This document shows positions 2-12,228 of a DNA stretch of 64,000 nt, one piece after another. The notes below the pieces were generated by a model. It worked only from the letters and a program-made list of their open reading frames with translations, did no database searches and had not been told where the DNA came from. A program made the position numbers and the translations under genes. This DNA comes from Polaribacter sejongensis. Its GTDB lineage: Bacteria; Bacteroidota; Bacteroidia; Flavobacteriales; Flavobacteriaceae. How positions within the stretch are numbered: position 1 is the first letter of the stretch; the number at the start of each line of letters is the position of its first letter. The stretch covers positions 2,921,501-2,985,500 of the forward strand of contig NZ_CP150667.1 in assembly GCF_038024065.1 (NCBI RefSeq). Reading direction: 5' to 3'.

Positions 2-1906
2 GTAAACGGTCAGGTGCATTTAGTTTCATCTACAGGTAAATACCTAACGGGTTTTTCAGTAGGTAAAGGTACAGCATCTATAAAAATTGCTACTACTTTA
101 GAAGATGGTGTTCCTGGTGGTTTTGCAGAAGGAACTCCGGTAGTAACATTAAATAAGGATACAGATTACAATATTTCTGCTAAAATAGATTTTACTACAA
201 AAAAAGTAAATCTTTATAATGGAGGTGAGTTAGTTTATGAGGATGCTCCTTTTTTAGACGAAGCTACAGACATCGCCAAAATAGATATTCAGATATTTTA
301 TATGTATAATAATAATGGACAATTCTATTTCGATAATATTTCTTTTTTAAACGCAGCAGAAAACCGTTTAAGCTTAATGAGTAATGTAGGTTCTGCCGAA
401 ACGCAAATTTCTTCTGTAAAGGTTGGTGATAAGTATGGTCAATATAGACAATCTGATATAGATACATTTCAGGCAGCAATAAACAATGCTAAAGTAGTAC
501 TTGAAAATTGTGCTGCTAACGTTGCAGCAATAGATCAGGCTATAGCAGATATAGAAGCTGCAAAAGTAGCTTTTGAAGCTGTAAAAGTAAATGATCCTGT
601 TTTAAAAATGTATTCAGGTTATGGTTTTTCAGGCGAAGAACACCAAATTTATTGTGGGTATTATAATGGAGGGCTAGGAGTATACGAAGATTGGGCGGTA
701 TCTTTTAAATTAGAAAAAGGATATATGGCAACTTTTGCACAAGACGTTAATGGTTTAGGTGTTAGTAAAGTATATGTTGCACAAGATAATGATTTAGCTA
801 TTAATTTACCAGAAGCGCTACAGAAATCAATTTCATTTATACGTGTGAGCCCTTGGTTTCCAGTTGGTAAAAAAGGAAGTTTAGGAAATACAAAATGGAC
901 TACTGCAGATACCTATAATGTGACCTGGCATTATAACTGGACCTTAGCGGCATCTGATAAAAATTCAGGAACGCAATTTGTGCCAATGTCTTGGACTAAA
1001 TCTAATAATAATGCCTATATAGAAAAGATGGAAGAGATTGGAAAAGATATGACCTTAAATCACCACATGGCATTTAATGAACCCGATAACTCAGATCAAT
1101 CTAACTTAACGGTAGCACAAGCTTTAGAAGCCTATCCAAAACTATTGGCTTCTGGTCTTAGAATTGGTGCTCCAGGTGTAGAGAATATACAATATAGTGC
1201 AAATAACGATTCATTTAATGATGATGCTTGGATTAAAGAATTTATGGATTCTTGTGTAGTACGTGGTTATCGTGTAGATTTTATTCCAGCACATGATTAT
1301 GTTCGTCGTTCAAAATCTACTTTTATAGAGCGATTTAAAGCGCTTCATGATAGATATAATCTTCCAATATGGGTAACAGAATACAACTATGGAAACCCAA
1401 ATATGGGATCTGCAAATATTACCCAAGAAAAGGGGTATAATAATATAAAAAGCTTAACAGAAGCTCTAGAAGAGACAGACTTTATAGAGCGTTACAATTG
1501 GTATTATTTCTTCGGGCAAGCTACTGGTATAGGTGGTATGACGGATGGTCAACTAAATATTACAGGACAATTTTATAGAGATCTAGAATCTCCTGCACCT
1601 TCATACATTCAAGAAGTATATGAGCAAGGGGTAAACTTAGCAGTAAGCAATTTCGAGAAATCTAATGTTGGTCTTTATCCAAACCCAGTAACAGGTCGTT
1701 TATTAACTATTAAGTACACAGAACCTTCTTTATATACAAATGCAATTGTTACGATATATAATGTGTACGGTAAAGAAGTTTTAACCAAATCAAATGGAGC
1801 TAATCAAGTAGATGTTTCTCATTTAAGCAGTGGTGTTTATTTAGTTCAAATTGTATCTGGTGATATAAAAACGACTAAAAAAATTATCATTTCTAGTCAA
1901 AACTAA
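2..1906 (+). CDS. Secreted GH128/Asl1-like glycoside hydrolase with T9SS tail, paralogue 1 (5' partial)
   Basis: The frame is already open at base 2 (VNGQVHLV...), and alignment to the third paralogue shows that about 91 N-terminal residues, including the signal peptide, lie before the window; the GTG at 14 is an internal Val codon. Visible modules are the end of a LamG-like beta-sandwich, a FIVAR-like helical linker, a beta/gamma-crystallin-like module, an Asl1-type (PF11790, GH128-like) barrel and a C-terminal sorting domain starting near the LYPNP motif. Candidate catalytic glutamates are in FNEPDN (codon 1079-1081) and WVTEYNYG. The catalytic domain is the most divergent of the three copies: it has HDY where the others have HYY, and it carries an insert after the IGAP motif. 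Polysaccharide backbone cleavage outside the cell is inferred; the true substrate is unknown. Confidence 0.85.
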   Translation, partial: VNGQVHLVSSTGKYLTGFSVGKGTASIKIATTLEDGVPGGFAEGTPVVTLNKDTDYNISAKIDFTTKKVNLYNGGELVYEDAPFLDEATDIAKIDIQIFYMYNNNGQFYFDNISFLNAAENRLSLMSNVGSAETQISSVKVGDKYGQYRQSDIDTFQAAINNAKVVLENCAANVAAIDQAIADIEAAKVAFEAVKVNDPVLKMYSGYGFSGEEHQIYCGYYNGGLGVYEDWAVSFKLEKGYMATFAQDVNGLGVSKVYVAQDNDLAINLPEALQKSISFIRVSPWFPVGKKGSLGNTKWTTADTYNVTWHYNWTLAASDKNSGTQFVPMSWTKSNNNAYIEKMEEIGKDMTLNHHMAFNEPDNSDQSNLTVAQALEAYPKLLASGLRIGAPGVENIQYSANNDSFNDDAWIKEFMDSCVVRGYRVDFIPAHDYVRRSKSTFIERFKALHDRYNLPIWVTEYNYGNPNMGSANITQEKGYNNIKSLTEALEETDFIERYNWYYFFGQATGIGGMTDGQLNITGQFYRDLESPAPSYIQEVYEQGVNLAVSNFEKSNVGLYPNPVTGRLLTIKYTEPSLYTNAIVTIYNVYGKEVLTKSNGANQVDVSHLSSGVYLVQIVSGDIKTTKKIIISSQN

Positions 1907-1917
1907 AACTTAATAAA

Positions 1918-4059
1918 ATGAGAAATTTACTAAAGTTAATAGTCTTTTTATTCACTTTCTATGGATTTTCACAAACAAATCCATGTGGAACAATACTAAA
2001 TGATACGTTTGATGAAGCAGGTGCATTACCAACCGAATGGACAGAATATAATACTACAGGTAGTGCAACTTTTGCTAGTGGTAAGTTAAAATTTGAACAT
2101 AGTACAGATCAGCCATCAGCATACAGAACTTTTAACGCTATTTCAAATAAAGTAACGCTTTCTTTTGATGTATCTGCCAGTCGTTCTTATGCAAGTTGTC
2201 AGGTAAATTTAATCTCGGAAACAGGGCAATATTTAGCTACGCTTGATGTTGGTTCTAAATCTGCAAGTATACAATATGCAACAACCATTTTAGAAGGTGT
2301 TCCTGGTGGTTTTACTAATGGATCTCCAGAGATAACTTTACAAACAAACACCTTTTATGCAATTAATGCAAACATCAATTTTACTACCAAAACAATAGAT
2401 TATTATGTAGATGGTGTATTAATGGCGGCAGATGTTCCGTTTCTAGAACCAGCAAATAATATTGCTAAAGTAGATATTCAATCATTATTTATGTATAATG
2501 ATAATGGACAATTCCAATTCGATAATATTTATTTTTTAAGTGTAGATGAAAACCGTTTAAACTTAATGAGTAGTGTTAGTGTATCAGAAACCTTGCTTTC
2601 TGCAGTTTCTATTGGAGTTAATTACGGGCAATATCCGCAAACAGCAGTAGCTACTTTTCAAACAGTATTAAATGAAGTAAAAACAGTACTTGCAAATTGT
2701 GAGGCGACTTCTGCAGCAGTAGATCAAGCTTTGGCAGATTTACAAGCAGCAAAAGTAGTTTTTGAGGCTACAAAAAAAGATGATCCTGTTCTTGAAATTT
2801 ATTCAGAATATGATTTTTCTGGTGATATGCACGAAATATATTGTGGTTTCTACAACGGTACTTTAGCTGCATACGATAACTGGGCAGTTTCATTTACCTT
2901 AGATAAAGGATATATGGCAACTTTTGCAGAAGATGTAAACGGCACCGGTGTAAGTAAGGTATATGTAGCGGCAGACCACGATTTAAGAATTAATCTTCCT
3001 GCAGAATTACAAAAGAAAGCTTCATTTATTCGTGTTTCTCCTTGGAGAGATGTTCATAAAAAAGGACTTGCAGGTGGAGGTACTGATGTTGCTGTTGCTT
3101 TAAATAACTCTTGGTATTACAATTGGAGCAATACTGGTGAAAATTTAGGAGAAATTGAATTTGTACCCAACCAATGGTCTGGTGGTTCCATCTCAAAATC
3201 GGTTAGTTTAGGTGAAAGAATGGATATTTCGCATCATATGGCTTTTAACGAACCAGATAATGATGACCAATCTAATATGACAACAGATAAGGCTATAGAA
3301 AAATATGAGTTGTTGCTAGCATCTGGTTTACGTTTGGGCTCTCCTGCAAATACAGATGGAGCAAAAGGAGCTACTTGGCGTAATGAATTTATGGAGAAAG
3401 CAGAAGCAAAAGGTTTACGTGTAGATTATATAGTAGTACATTATTATAAAAAAACATCTCCAGCTAATTTTTACAATTGGCTAAAAGCAATTCATGACAA
3501 ATGGCAACGTCCAATTTGGATTAAAGAATTTAATTATGGCGCTCCATGGGTGTCTAATAAACCAGTAGACATTCAAGCTTCTAGTGATGGGTTAGAATCT
3601 TATATAAATATGTTAGATGATACTAGCTTTGTAGAGCGTTATTCTGTATTTACTTGGCAACCAGATAATGCAGAGCGTTTTACCTTTTTTACAGTACGTA
3701 GACCTATAGAATTAAATGTTTCTGGCATTATGTATAGAGACCATGTTTCACCTGTTGCGTATACCCAAGAAGTATATGAACAAGGTGTAAACTTAGCGGT
3801 AACAAGTTTTGAGAAATCTAATATTAGACTTTATCCAAACCCAATAACAGGTAAAGAGCTTACTATTAATTATGCAGCATCTTCAATAACAAACAATGTT
3901 GTTGTAAAAATATTTAATGTCTACGGAAAAGAGGTTTTTAAGAAAACAAATACTCCAAAGCAAATAGATGTTTCTAGTTTAAGTAATGGCGTTTATTTGG
4001 TTCAGATGATTTCTGGAGATAAAAAAATTAACAAAAAAATTATAATAACCAATCAATAA
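1918..4059 (+). CDS. Secreted GH128/Asl1-like glycoside hydrolase with T9SS tail, paralogue 2
   Basis: This 713-residue protein starts with a Sec signal peptide (cleavage near FSQ, residues 17-19). It is followed by a LamG-like sandwich (about 25-205), a helical FIVAR-like linker (about 207-290), a beta/gamma-crystallin-like module (about 291-378, ending SFIRVSPW), an Asl1-like barrel (about 380-620) and a T9SS domain (about 640-713). Glu445 (FNEPDN) and Glu537 (WIKEFNYG) fit the acid/base and nucleophile of GH128-type enzymes. It lies 11 bp after paralogue 1 and 14 bp before paralogue 3, so the three are probably one operon. The family includes beta-1,3-glucanases, but this setting of fucosidases and sulfatases suggests another substrate; that is inference. 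Confidence 0.88.
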   Translation: MRNLLKLIVFLFTFYGFSQTNPCGTILNDTFDEAGALPTEWTEYNTTGSATFASGKLKFEHSTDQPSAYRTFNAISNKVTLSFDVSASRSYASCQVNLISETGQYLATLDVGSKSASIQYATTILEGVPGGFTNGSPEITLQTNTFYAINANINFTTKTIDYYVDGVLMAADVPFLEPANNIAKVDIQSLFMYNDNGQFQFDNIYFLSVDENRLNLMSSVSVSETLLSAVSIGVNYGQYPQTAVATFQTVLNEVKTVLANCEATSAAVDQALADLQAAKVVFEATKKDDPVLEIYSEYDFSGDMHEIYCGFYNGTLAAYDNWAVSFTLDKGYMATFAEDVNGTGVSKVYVAADHDLRINLPAELQKKASFIRVSPWRDVHKKGLAGGGTDVAVALNNSWYYNWSNTGENLGEIEFVPNQWSGGSISKSVSLGERMDISHHMAFNEPDNDDQSNMTTDKAIEKYELLLASGLRLGSPANTDGAKGATWRNEFMEKAEAKGLRVDYIVVHYYKKTSPANFYNWLKAIHDKWQRPIWIKEFNYGAPWVSNKPVDIQASSDGLESYINMLDDTSFVERYSVFTWQPDNAERFTFFTVRRPIELNVSGIMYRDHVSPVAYTQEVYEQGVNLAVTSFEKSNIRLYPNPITGKELTINYAASSITNNVVVKIFNVYGKEVFKKTNTPKQIDVSSLSNGVYLVQMISGDKKINKKIIITNQ

Positions 4060-4073
4060 TAAAACCTAACAAG

Positions 4074-6209
4074 ATGAAAAATTTACTAAAATTTATAGTC
4101 ATTTTATTTAGTTTCTATGGATTTGCACAAACAGATCCTTGTGGAAGTGTTATAAATGATACTTTTGATACTGCAGGTGCATTACCAACCGAATGGACAG
4201 AATACAATACTTCAGGAAGCGTTACAGTTGCTAATGGTAAACTAAAGTTTGAACATAGTACAACAATGCCATCTGCATACAGAACACTTACTCCTGTAAC
4301 AAGTAATGCTGCTTTTTCTTTTGATGTAAATGCTTCGCGTAACTCTGTAAATGGGCAGGTTCATTTAGTTTCATCAACAGGTAAACATCTTACAAGTATA
4401 TCAGTAGGTAAAGGTACGGCATCCATTAAAATTGCAACTGTAATGGAAAATGGAGTTCCAGGTGGTTTTGCAGATGGAACACCTGTAGTAACCTTAAATA
4501 AGGATACAGATTACAGTATTTCTGCTCAAATTAATTTTACAACTAAAAAAGTAAATCTTTATAATAAAGGAGAATTGGTTTATGAAGGAGCTCCTTTTTT
4601 AGAAGAAGCAGAAGACATTGCTAAAATAGATATTCAATTATTGTATATGTATGCAAACAATGGGCAATTCTATTTCGATAATATTGCCATACTTAATGCC
4701 AGTGAAAACCGCATACTTTTACAAGGAACTGTAGGTGCTGCAGAAACTTTAATTTCTACTGCAGTTGTAGGTGAAAAGTATAATCAATACTCTCAATCTG
4801 GGGTAGATGCTTTTCAAACAGCAATAACCAACGCTAATATAGCACTTGCAAACTGTGAAGCTACTTCTGCAACATTAGATGCTGCTTTGGCAGATTTACA
4901 AGCAGCAGAAGTTGCTTTTGAAGCAACTAGAGTAAATGATCCTGTACTTAAAATTTATTCTGAATATGATTTTTCTGGTACAGAGCATCAAATGTATTGT
5001 GGTTATTATAATGGTACTTTAGGAGATTACGACAATTGGGCGGTTTCTTTTACATTAGATAAAGGCTATATGGTAACTTTTGCTGAAGATGTAAATGGTA
5101 CTGGAGTAAGTAAAGTATATGTTGCTCAAGACAATAATTTAAGAATTAATCTTCCGGCAGTATTACAAAAAACGGCTTCTTTTATTCGTGTTTCTCCATG
5201 GAAAGATGTACTTAAAAAAGGAATGGGCGCTAAAGGAGATGCTGTTGTTGCAGCATTAAATACTTCTTGGCATTACAACTGGGGTAATGATGGTGAAGCA
5301 ATTGGAGATGCAGAGTTTGTACCAAACCAATGGGGCGGAGGCTCTATTGATAAACCTATAAGCCTTGGGAAAAGAATGGATATTTCACATCACATGGCTT
5401 TTAACGAGCCAGATAATGATGATCAATCTAATATGACTACTGATAAAGCTATTGAAAAATATGAGCTTTTATTAGCTTCTGGTTTACGTTTAGGTTCTCC
5501 TGCAAATACAGATGGTGCAAGAGGAGAAACTTGGCGAAATGAGTTTATGACCAAGGCGGAAGCAGCAGGGTTACGTGTAGATTATATGGTGGTTCATTAT
5601 TATAAAAAAACAACACCAGCCAATTTTTACAATTGGTTAAAAAAGATTTATGATAAATGGCAACGTCCAATTTGGATTAAAGAATTTAATTATGGTGCAA
5701 CTTGGGTTTCTAATAAGCCAACTACAAACCAAGCAGCTAGCGATGGTTTAGAATCGTATCTTAATAAATTAGATGAAACAGATTTTATAGAGCGTTACGC
5801 AGTATTTACTTGGCAACCAGATAGCGAAGTATACTCATTAATGTCAGTAAGATATCCTGTAACATTAAGTATTTCTGGAGAAATGTATAGAGACCATGTT
5901 TCGCCTGTAGCATACACACAGGAAGTGTATGAGCAAGGTGCAAATTTAGCGGTAGGAGATGCTGAGGTTGATGCTAAAGTTTTAGTATACCCAACAATTG
6001 TAGATAACGGAATCTTAAACATAAAGTATTCAGAAGAGTTTGCTCAAAATAATGTAGCATTAACTTTTTACAATACCATGGGGCAGCAAGTTAAAAAAGT
6101 TACTGGTTTAAAGTCTAGAATAAATGTGAGTGAATTGTCTAATGGATTATATATTATTAAGATAAAATCTGATTTAGGAACAAGTACAAAGAAAATTATT
6201 ATTCAATAA
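4074..6209 (+). CDS. Secreted GH128/Asl1-like glycoside hydrolase with T9SS tail, paralogue 3
   Basis: This 711-residue protein has the same architecture as its two upstream neighbours: signal peptide (cut near FAQ, residue 19), LamG-like sandwich, helical linker, beta/gamma-crystallin-like module, Asl1-like barrel with Glu445 (FNEPDN) and Glu537 (WIKEFNYG), and a T9SS tail. Its catalytic domain is nearly the same as that of paralogue 2, its N-terminal half matches paralogue 1, and its sorting domain (VLVYPTIVDNG start) is unlike either. It is the last gene before a strong hairpin terminator. An endo-acting role on the sulfated polysaccharide handled by the downstream genes is inferred from secretion and position. 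Confidence 0.88.
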   Translation: MKNLLKFIVILFSFYGFAQTDPCGSVINDTFDTAGALPTEWTEYNTSGSVTVANGKLKFEHSTTMPSAYRTLTPVTSNAAFSFDVNASRNSVNGQVHLVSSTGKHLTSISVGKGTASIKIATVMENGVPGGFADGTPVVTLNKDTDYSISAQINFTTKKVNLYNKGELVYEGAPFLEEAEDIAKIDIQLLYMYANNGQFYFDNIAILNASENRILLQGTVGAAETLISTAVVGEKYNQYSQSGVDAFQTAITNANIALANCEATSATLDAALADLQAAEVAFEATRVNDPVLKIYSEYDFSGTEHQMYCGYYNGTLGDYDNWAVSFTLDKGYMVTFAEDVNGTGVSKVYVAQDNNLRINLPAVLQKTASFIRVSPWKDVLKKGMGAKGDAVVAALNTSWHYNWGNDGEAIGDAEFVPNQWGGGSIDKPISLGKRMDISHHMAFNEPDNDDQSNMTTDKAIEKYELLLASGLRLGSPANTDGARGETWRNEFMTKAEAAGLRVDYMVVHYYKKTTPANFYNWLKKIYDKWQRPIWIKEFNYGATWVSNKPTTNQAASDGLESYLNKLDETDFIERYAVFTWQPDSEVYSLMSVRYPVTLSISGEMYRDHVSPVAYTQEVYEQGANLAVGDAEVDAKVLVYPTIVDNGILNIKYSEEFAQNNVALTFYNTMGQQVKKVTGLKSRINVSELSNGLYIIKIKSDLGTSTKKIIIQ

Positions 6210-11319: not shown

Positions 11320-12228
11320 ATGAAAAAAATAAGCTGTTTAATTTTTTTATTATCACTAATAAGCAATATTTCTATTGCTCAAAACCCAATTTTACATAAA
11401 AAAGACACTGGCTTTATTTACGCTGCAGATCCAGCTGCAGAGGTTTTTAATGATAAAGTTTATGTATATACTTCTAGAGATGTAGAGAATGCGGTAGGCT
11501 ATAGTACTATGCAAGATTATGCGGTTTTAGAATCATCAGATTTAAAAACATGGATTAATCACGGTGTTGTATTGAAACCACGTGAATATAGTTGGGCTCA
11601 TGGGCAAATGAATGCGCCAGATGTTGCTTATAAAAACGGCTGGTATTATTTTTATTTCCCATACAACAAAACGGATATTGGTGTTGCAAAAAGCCGCACT
11701 CCAATAGGTCCTTGGGAAGAAGCGGTGTCGGATAAAATTACAACCATTTTCGATCCTACTGTTTTTGTAGATGATGATGGACAAGCTTATATTTATGGAA
11801 ATGACGGTAAAGTAGATATTGGAGCACCTGGACGACATATTATGGGCGCAAAGCTAAAAGATAATATGATTGAATTAGATGGACCTTGGGTGCAACTGAG
11901 TAAAGAACCTGTAAATGAAGCGGTGCATGTTTTTAAAAGAAATGATACCTATTATTTTCATGCTAGAGTTGGTAAGGTTACAAAGTATTGGATGGCAGAT
12001 TCGCCATTACCACAATTTGCTACTTTAAAAGGAGAATTAGCACCAGATGCACCTAATGCACCAAATCATGCATCGGTTATTGAGTTTAAAAATGAATGGT
12101 ATTTCTTTTATCACCGAGGTGATGTAAATGAAGGTTCTTATCATAGAAGGTCTACTTGTTTCGATAAAATGACTTTTAGAGAAGATGGCACTATTGAACC
12201 AATCATTTATACTTTAGAAAAGAAATAA
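11320..12228 (+). CDS. GH43-type five-bladed beta-propeller hydrolase
   Basis: The 302-residue protein has a Sec signal peptide cut near IAQ (residue 21), so it is a soluble periplasmic or secreted enzyme. The catalytic triad expected for GH43 is visible: Asp37 (AADPA), Asp145 (FDPTVF) and Glu200 (VNEAVHVF). Blade-like repeats such as APDVAYKNGWYYFYFP and a late FKNEWYFFYHRGD support the propeller fold. Family members are beta-xylosidases, alpha-L-arabinofuranosidases or galactosidases, and the specificity here is open. The gene is tightly packed (8 bp after a sulfatase, 27 bp before GH95), pointing to joint expression. Confidence 0.82.
   Translation: MKKISCLIFLLSLISNISIAQNPILHKKDTGFIYAADPAAEVFNDKVYVYTSRDVENAVGYSTMQDYAVLESSDLKTWINHGVVLKPREYSWAHGQMNAPDVAYKNGWYYFYFPYNKTDIGVAKSRTPIGPWEEAVSDKITTIFDPTVFVDDDGQAYIYGNDGKVDIGAPGRHIMGAKLKDNMIELDGPWVQLSKEPVNEAVHVFKRNDTYYFHARVGKVTKYWMADSPLPQFATLKGELAPDAPNAPNHASVIEFKNEWYFFYHRGDVNEGSYHRRSTCFDKMTFREDGTIEPIIYTLEKK

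Follow-up and report, generated by a model that had tools for sequence, protein, structure and literature searches.

Three adjacent genes, C1, C2 and C3, on the forward strand at the start of a 64,000-nucleotide stretch of the Polaribacter sejongensis genome (contig NZ_CP150667.1, positions 2,921,501 to 2,985,500; hereafter the window) encode multidomain hydrolases that form a mosaic of shared modules, and recombination is behind that mosaic. We regard it as likely that the genes belong to a surface-secreted set of glycan hydrolases that evolves by module exchange, through homologous recombination between neighboring genes, and that an uneven duplication together with a swap involving an upstream gene of a different catalytic kind produced the present arrangement. 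C1 (positions 2–1906 of the window; full gene L012:15229-17406, 725 aa, with its start 272 bases before the window edge) is a type I GH128-like hydrolase. C2 (1918–4059, 713 aa) joins a type II catalytic domain to a C1-type tail and an A2/A3-type N-module, and C3 (4074–6209, 711 aa) joins a type II catalytic domain to the ‘PT’ tail of flavobacterial type II genes and a C1/A1-type N-module, as assigned from the open reading frames and the module trees. Each protein has the same order of parts: a signal peptide (judged by eye), a beta-sandwich N-module, a FIVAR-like linker, a possible βγ-crystallin-like (bg) domain, a GH128-like core (PF11790) and a type IX secretion system (T9SS) tail. The three genes are half of a six-gene set. 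The other members, A1, A2 and A3, lie ~5–13 kb upstream of the window in the same genome and have an N-module and linker as in the C genes (64%, 47% and 49% identity to C3, respectively), with a different catalytic domain; beyond these six genes, a search of the genome with the N-module part of C3 gave no further match at E ≤ 0.001.

Mosaic pattern and module trees

The closest partner of each protein changes along the chain. In a sliding 60-column comparison, C1 and C3 are 80–87% identical at residues ~60–200, as against 47–53% for the other two pairs; C2 and C3 are 83–96% identical at residues ~420–580, as against 25–60%; and from residue ~620 onward C1 and C2 are 57–62% identical, as against 31–52%. 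This is the pattern that the initial annotation, made from the letters of the stretch, had described for three adjacent paralogs; the genes lie where it had placed them and the motifs that it quoted are present. Its statement that C2 and C3 are nearly the same in the catalytic domain holds around the FNEPDN motif, but over the whole domain the two are 78% identical. With 885 informative nucleotide sites, a three-breakpoint model gains 144 log units, which none of 300 shuffles reached (best shuffle 26), and the gain of a one-breakpoint model was likewise reached by 0 of 300. Among models of zero to six breakpoints, the Bayesian information criterion (BIC) is optimal at five, placed at residues 18, 194, 220, 357 and 632. 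Third codon positions alone give a gain of 26.9 (0/300 shuffles; best shuffle 19.8).

One topology for all domains, the outcome that the initial annotation had held to be incompatible with exchange, falls short of separate topologies for the five modules by 1029 log-likelihood units. When the data of each module were set against the trees of the other modules (19 rows, without G517_x and without named groups), the approximately unbiased (AU) test gave p < 0.01 in 18 of 20 comparisons and values of 0.043 and 0.035 for the N-module/linker pair, with the proviso that p-AU is rough for very poor trees; the shared, joint tree is rejected by all five modules. In the catalytic tree (16 rows, as for the tail, linker and bg trees, which leave aside the A genes, G517 and G514), C1 falls with type I (support 100/100) and C2 and C3 fall with type II (98/98), and a topology that forces C1 and C3 together is rejected (p 3e-67). 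The tail tree puts C1 and C2 with Mf_1, G421_1 and the Bacteroidales genes. C3 falls there with five further second genes from flavobacteria, together with type I genes from G002, G429 and G445 (99/97); a tree that unites C2 with C3 is rejected (p 7e-42). The N-module tree rejects a type I clade (p 4e-47), a type II clade (p 4e-37) and a grouping of C2 with C3 (p 0.004). The groups used in the AU tests of these three trees, and of the N-module and linker trees with the A genes below, were picked after the identities were known. In the bg tree, unlike the N-module tree, C2 groups with C3 and C1 with type I. The gene G493_c, which is cut by a contig end, was kept out of all trees, and sparse columns were dropped. 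Together with the breakpoints and the junction repeat described below, the module trees lend strong support to the earlier claim that recombination is required and simple duplication insufficient.

Junction repeat and a proposed uneven duplication

Self-comparison of 71.5 kb revealed a forward-strand repeat that spans the two junctions between the genes. Its first copy (1610–2129) comprises the C1 tail, an 11-nt spacer and the C2 signal peptide with the first ~70 codons; its second copy (3766–4285) comprises the C2 tail, a 14-nt spacer that aligns with the first and the C3 signal peptide with the first ~70 codons, and the two are 78.8% identical over 523 bp (blastn). The similarity starts at a conserved forward-strand patch coding QEVYEQGVNLAV (1610–1645) at the boundary of catalytic domain and tail, continues through the spacer and fades after about codon 60–70. 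This patch, near which a breakpoint falls (aligned residue 632), is the proposed crossover site. The longest matching run of C2 and C3 within residues 20–287 is reached by none of 2000 shuffles.

The starting point was probably a type I–type II gene pair of the kind found in other genomes. An uneven crossover between the patch behind the type II catalytic domain and the same patch in C1 would duplicate a unit of ~2.16 kb, consisting of the C1 tail, the spacer and the type II gene as far as its catalytic domain, and would yield C2 as a type II gene with the tail of C1 and C3 as a type II gene with the original tail. A single tandem duplication of this sort would explain both the tail of C2 (61% identical to that of C1) and the signal peptide and catalytic domain that C2 and C3 share. 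Synonymous divergence (dS) over the supposed unit is 0.72 for the C1–C2 tail and 0.49, 0.76, 0.80 and 0.99 for the head, linker, bg and catalytic parts of C2–C3, with overlapping intervals. The initial annotation had called for recombination or gene conversion between modules; the recombination stands, but conversion among the three genes is not needed for most of the mosaic if one uneven duplication occurred. This step, like the N-module exchange that follows, is reconstructed from sequence.

Proposed N-module exchange with the upstream genes

C2 seems to have exchanged its front module with a nearby enzyme of an unrelated kind. The N-module tract of C2 (1997–2559, forward strand) is 78.5% identical in DNA to A3 (L012:8185-8750) and 75.3% identical to A2 over positions 1999–2529, and the identity of the C2 N-module is 68% to A3, 59% to C1 and 57% to C3. 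The N-module of C3 (4122–4703, forward strand) is in turn 82.7% identical to that of A1 (L012:2687-3250) and 80.1% identical to C1 over 1024 bp, and the DNA identity of the A1 N-module to those of C1 and C3 is 79–83%. For N-module residues 61–210 the tree has a clade of A1, C1 and C3 (100/99) and a clade of A2, A3 and C2 (97/92), the latter joined at 98/97 by G493_A, an A-type enzyme from Bacteroidales that carries an A2/A3-type N-module; groupings of A1, A2 and A3 together (p 2e-4) and of C1, C2 and C3 together (p 3e-5) are both rejected. In the adjoining linker the two N-module groupings are themselves rejected (p 0.01), A1–A3 come together (89/80), C1–C3 together are acceptable (p 0.66) and grouping by catalytic family is not rejected.

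Since an A2/A3-type module is present in G493_A, which belongs to another order, we infer the direction of transfer: C2 would have had its N-terminal beta-sandwich swapped for the A-type module of the upstream GH30-like A2 or A3, and A1 would have taken a C-type N-module. At E ≤ 0.01 the Pfam matches of A1–A3 are confined to the tail, with none in the catalytic domain; a profile search with an alignment finds GH30-type xylanases at E about 1e-4, and this domain may thus be GH30-like. C3 is 65% identical to C2 overall yet the histories of their N-modules differ, a warning that whole-protein similarity misleads annotation in such families. A recent conversion between C1 and C3 was considered and rejected: the longest run of this pair is reached by 1113 of 2000 shuffles and its dS is 0.63.

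Relatives and recurrence of exchange

The full architecture is rare. It is found in 6 of 166 genomes of the genus, including this one (E ≤ 1e-60). Matches to both the N-module and the catalytic core occur in 3 of 397 genomes of the family, this one included, and in the class the architecture is found in 1 of 395 genomes, which is this one; in these last two surveys two candidates per genome were scored and genes with the N-module alone may have escaped. Relatives include Mariniflexile sp. AS56 (G323) and two Bacteroidales genomes (G492 and G493). An adjacent pair is present in seven other genomes, with the type I gene 5′ in all seven; five are type I–II pairs (G323, G002, G421, G429 and G517) and two are type I–III pairs (G445 and G493). 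G517 has an additional type I gene ahead of its pair, G514 has a lone type I gene, and in G492 a single type II gene stands by itself close to the end of a contig. Among the flavobacterial catalytic domains, identity is 34–41% between types I and II, 74–87% within type I and 69–90% within type II, rising to 97% with G517; the type II domain of G492_a, from Bacteroidales, is 73–76% identical to those of C2 and C3, as close as the flavobacterial ones.

The nearest counterpart of a module comes from the gene's own genome for 9 of 18 N-modules, 7 of 18 linkers, 3 of 18 bg domains, 3 of 18 catalytic domains and 2 of 17 tails. The A genes were left out of this count, so that the nearest N-module of C2, that of A3, is missed, and G517_x, whose C-terminal part is different, was shortened to 650 residues here and in the run analysis and does not enter the tail count. 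For the pairs of Mariniflexile, G445 and G517, N-module dS is 0.27–0.54 as against 1.05–1.59 in the catalytic domain. In G517 a tract of 157 identical bp in the N-module (0/2000 shuffles) joins the type I and type II genes G517_1 and G517_2 (L087:4724-9078), where the orthologous pair G429_1/G429_2 is 79–82% identical; this is apparently a recent gene conversion. The G002 pair has one short run beyond all 2000 shuffles. G445_2 (L078:7731-9881) combines the N-module of its neighbor (83–90% aa identity) with a linker end, bg domain and tail of type II and with a catalytic domain of type III that is nearest to G493_a (58–85% by stretch; 31–60% to five flavobacterial type II domains and up to 62% to G492_a). 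Judged by these similarities, G445_2 is a mosaic of four sources, whose third catalytic type is also found in a Bacteroidales genome.

The initial annotation had also proposed selection for different catalytic specificities. This is plausible, given the pairing of type I with type II in five other genomes and with type III in two, but C2 and C3 are of one type and their catalytic domains have a dN/dS (nonsynonymous to synonymous divergence) of about 0.17 (dN 0.16, dS 0.92–0.99); this part of the proteins has therefore been under purifying selection, and the idea that positive selection acted there between C2 and C3 is rejected. Types I and II may stay distinct because they are too diverged to recombine (52% identity at the DNA level) or because selection keeps both.

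Alternative explanations

Could conversion among C1, C2 and C3 alone have produced the mosaic, with a tandem duplication followed by transfer of the C1 tail to C2 and of an N-module between C1 and C3? Conversion between neighboring copies does occur in this gene family, as the G517 tract indicates, and the low N-module dS of three pairs, set against their catalytic dS, fits such a process. We nevertheless find this unlikely because the odd N-module is that of C2, which is nearest to A3 rather than to C1 or C3, as the clades of residues 61–210 also have it, and because the continuous repeat through the spacer would deliver tail and signal peptide in one step. It is quite improbable that C2 arrived by horizontal transfer as a ready-made mosaic recombined in another genome: the patchy distribution of the locus in the genus and the closeness of the Bacteroidales G492_a domain to C2 and C3 would fit, but the junction repeat spans C1, C2 and C3 of this very genome, the C2 tail is C1-like, and no C2-like mosaic is present among the few relatives compared. 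The view that no exchange took place, and that differing constraint or convergence made the modules alike, can draw on the weaker signal at third positions than in the full data and on the lack of a long identical run between C1 and C3; it is refuted by the gain from separate topologies, by the third-position permutations, by the similarity of the non-coding spacer and by the identical tract in G517.

Several observations weigh against module exchange between neighboring genes as we have set it out. With third positions the BIC pays for only two breakpoints (357 and 649), and narrowly (819.0 versus 822.6 for none), and C1 and C3 show no tract of recent conversion. The pairs of G421 and G002 have N-modules that are not homogenized (dS 1.24 and 1.77), the pairs of Mariniflexile (293/2000 shuffles) and G445 (150/2000) lack a long tract, and the orthologous controls G517_1/G429_1 (5/2000) and G517_2/G429_2 (8/2000) also score low, so that the run test is sensitive to uneven rates and by itself no proof. 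C2 and C3 are not supported as a clade in the catalytic tree, where they form an open fork with G492_a, or in the bg tree (57/73), and the case for the duplication is consequently made by the junction repeat and by position. The linker tree of 16 rows lacks resolution, and the catalytic tree does not fit the bg data (rejected at p 0.005), which means that the histories of these two domains are not exactly one. The ‘PT’ tail is present in three type I genes (G002, G429 and G445) and missing from G492_a, a type II gene; the kind of tail is therefore not bound to the catalytic type. Finally, the direction of the N-module exchange hinges on a single A-type outgroup, G493_A.

Homologous recombination between neighboring genes operates here by mechanisms of known kinds; gene conversion and uneven crossing-over are established in tandem gene arrays. 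The locus resembles such arrays in its repeated junction, its homogenized shared module and its diverged specific module, and differs from them in that the partners include two catalytic families with a common N-module and linker. What stands out is this exchange between two catalytic families within a single locus, and it makes the genes a well-resolved case of multidomain carbohydrate enzymes gaining new combinations by uneven duplication and by exchange with a different family. In titles and abstract beginnings of openly licensed literature we found no description of module exchange in such loci, a weak negative. More tentatively, and with somewhat more doubt than confidence, we suggest that parts are exchanged in such loci as a standing process, in which cassettes of N-terminal beta-sandwich and T9SS tail pass between catalytic families and catalytic domains are replaced within a conserved scaffold. 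Possible examples are C2 with A2/A3, A1 with C1/C3, the A2 tail with a fucolectin-bearing gene and the catalytic replacement in G445_2. If so, targeting would stay uniform across the locus while catalytic specificity diversifies.

Domain architecture

The N-module (residues ~25–208) is modeled as a beta-sandwich with predicted local distance difference test (pLDDT) values in the block of mostly 80–94. Confidence in the modeled catalytic domain is low (stretches below 50), and for this reason we build no claim on it. The initial annotation had called the N-terminal half LamG-like, an assignment that Pfam does not support: none of the 16 Pfam families listed for the 16 members at E ≤ 1 is a LamG model (HMMER filters drop most weak matches), and neither LamG nor another Pfam family matches the N-module at cut-off, the prediction being that of a beta-sandwich. 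A distant relative, G492_b, matches Laminin_G_3 at 0.0048, below cut-off. The helical linker of C3 (4704–4934, forward strand, as are the C3 features that follow), with three helices in the model, scores 22.5 bits with PF07554 (FIVAR), under the cut-off of 29.2; C1 and C2 score 29.4 and 29.5 bits, and 15 of 16 members match at E ≤ 1. The possible bg domain of C3 (4935–5228, ~98 residues) is a weak assignment from a profile match to 3hzb_A (E 0.043), which we take to be a βγ-crystallin.

The GH128-like core of C3 (5229–5933) scores 126.4 bits with PF11790 (Glyco_hydro_cc), as compared with 134.7 bits for C1 as cut by the window and 124.4 bits for C2 (gathering cut-off 21), and all 16 members match at E ≤ 1. 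Glu445 (codon 5406–5408) and Glu537 (codon 5682–5684) of C3 are invariant in 16 of 16 members and are presumably the acid/base and nucleophile pair; Glu537 aligns to a position that is Gln in chain 6ufl. GH128 enzymes in CAZy are endo-beta-1,3-glucanases, and the locus of C1–C3 suggests another substrate. C1–C3 resemble the solved GH128-like chains (6uaq, 6ufl, 6uay and 8j3x) in a core that scores 124–135 bits with both glutamates kept, and differ in being multidomain T9SS proteins of a sulfated-fucose locus, the matched solved chains having 230–444 residues. The ‘PT’-type tail of C3, as placed by the tail tree, occupies 5967–6206 and scores 42.1 bits with PF18962. All three proteins have the signs of T9SS type A cargo, namely PF18962 at 42–56 bits (cut-off 27), TIGR04183 at 37–54 bits (cut-off 23) and a signal peptide, and would leave the cell via T9SS as a surface-secreted set.

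Locus context

The surrounding cluster contains two SusD genes with SusC-like neighbors, of which a Plug domain confirms one and the other has no match at E ≤ 1e-10. Its enzymes are three GH29, one GH95, three GH43 above cut-off, one GH30, eight sulfatases and esterase-type genes. For fucose catabolism it has an L-fucose isomerase (FucI), an FGGY kinase and a class II aldolase; a gene for an aldehyde dehydrogenase is present as well. Judging by these neighboring genes, the target is probably a sulfated, fucose-containing polysaccharide of algal origin. The cluster is like the polysaccharide utilization loci of marine Bacteroidota in gathering SusC/D, fucosidases, sulfatases and fucose catabolism in one stretch, and differs in that six hydrolases of two catalytic families have exchangeable N-modules in common. 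Types I and II may cut different linkages or decorations of one polymer by a two-glutamate mechanism, and the N-terminal and bg-like modules may bind glycan or protein partners, roles suggested by the neighboring genes. The paired enzymes of types I and II would be promising subjects for enzymology on fucose-containing polysaccharides. The known fucanase families GH107, GH168, GH174 and GH187 are named in PMC11943901; GH141 is the subject of PMC12786026, and multimodular enzymes of flavobacteria are that of PMC13235733.

Another internal duplication of the cluster concerns two GH43 genes (L012:13347-14060 and window positions 11505–12218), whose DNA is 74% identical over 722 bp. In G421, a DDE transposase gene (L076:4236-5213) lies directly upstream of the type I–II pair. 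The distant relative G492_b (L082:4682-8014, 1111 aa) carries the N-module on a third kind of enzyme, with an NPCBM domain and a weak arabinofuranosidase-like match. A2 and a fucolectin-domain protein are different enzymes apart from their T9SS tails, which share 90.6% identity over 256 bp up to both stop codons (L012:2178-2432 and L012:7544-7798), apparently the result of a recent tail exchange, to judge from the two sequences. The region upstream of C1 has short stretches of 84–87% identity in common with the regions upstream of the gene at L012:10709 (L012:15053-15134 and L012:10654-10735) and of A2 (L012:15049-15092 and L012:5272-5316), which are perhaps promoter copies.

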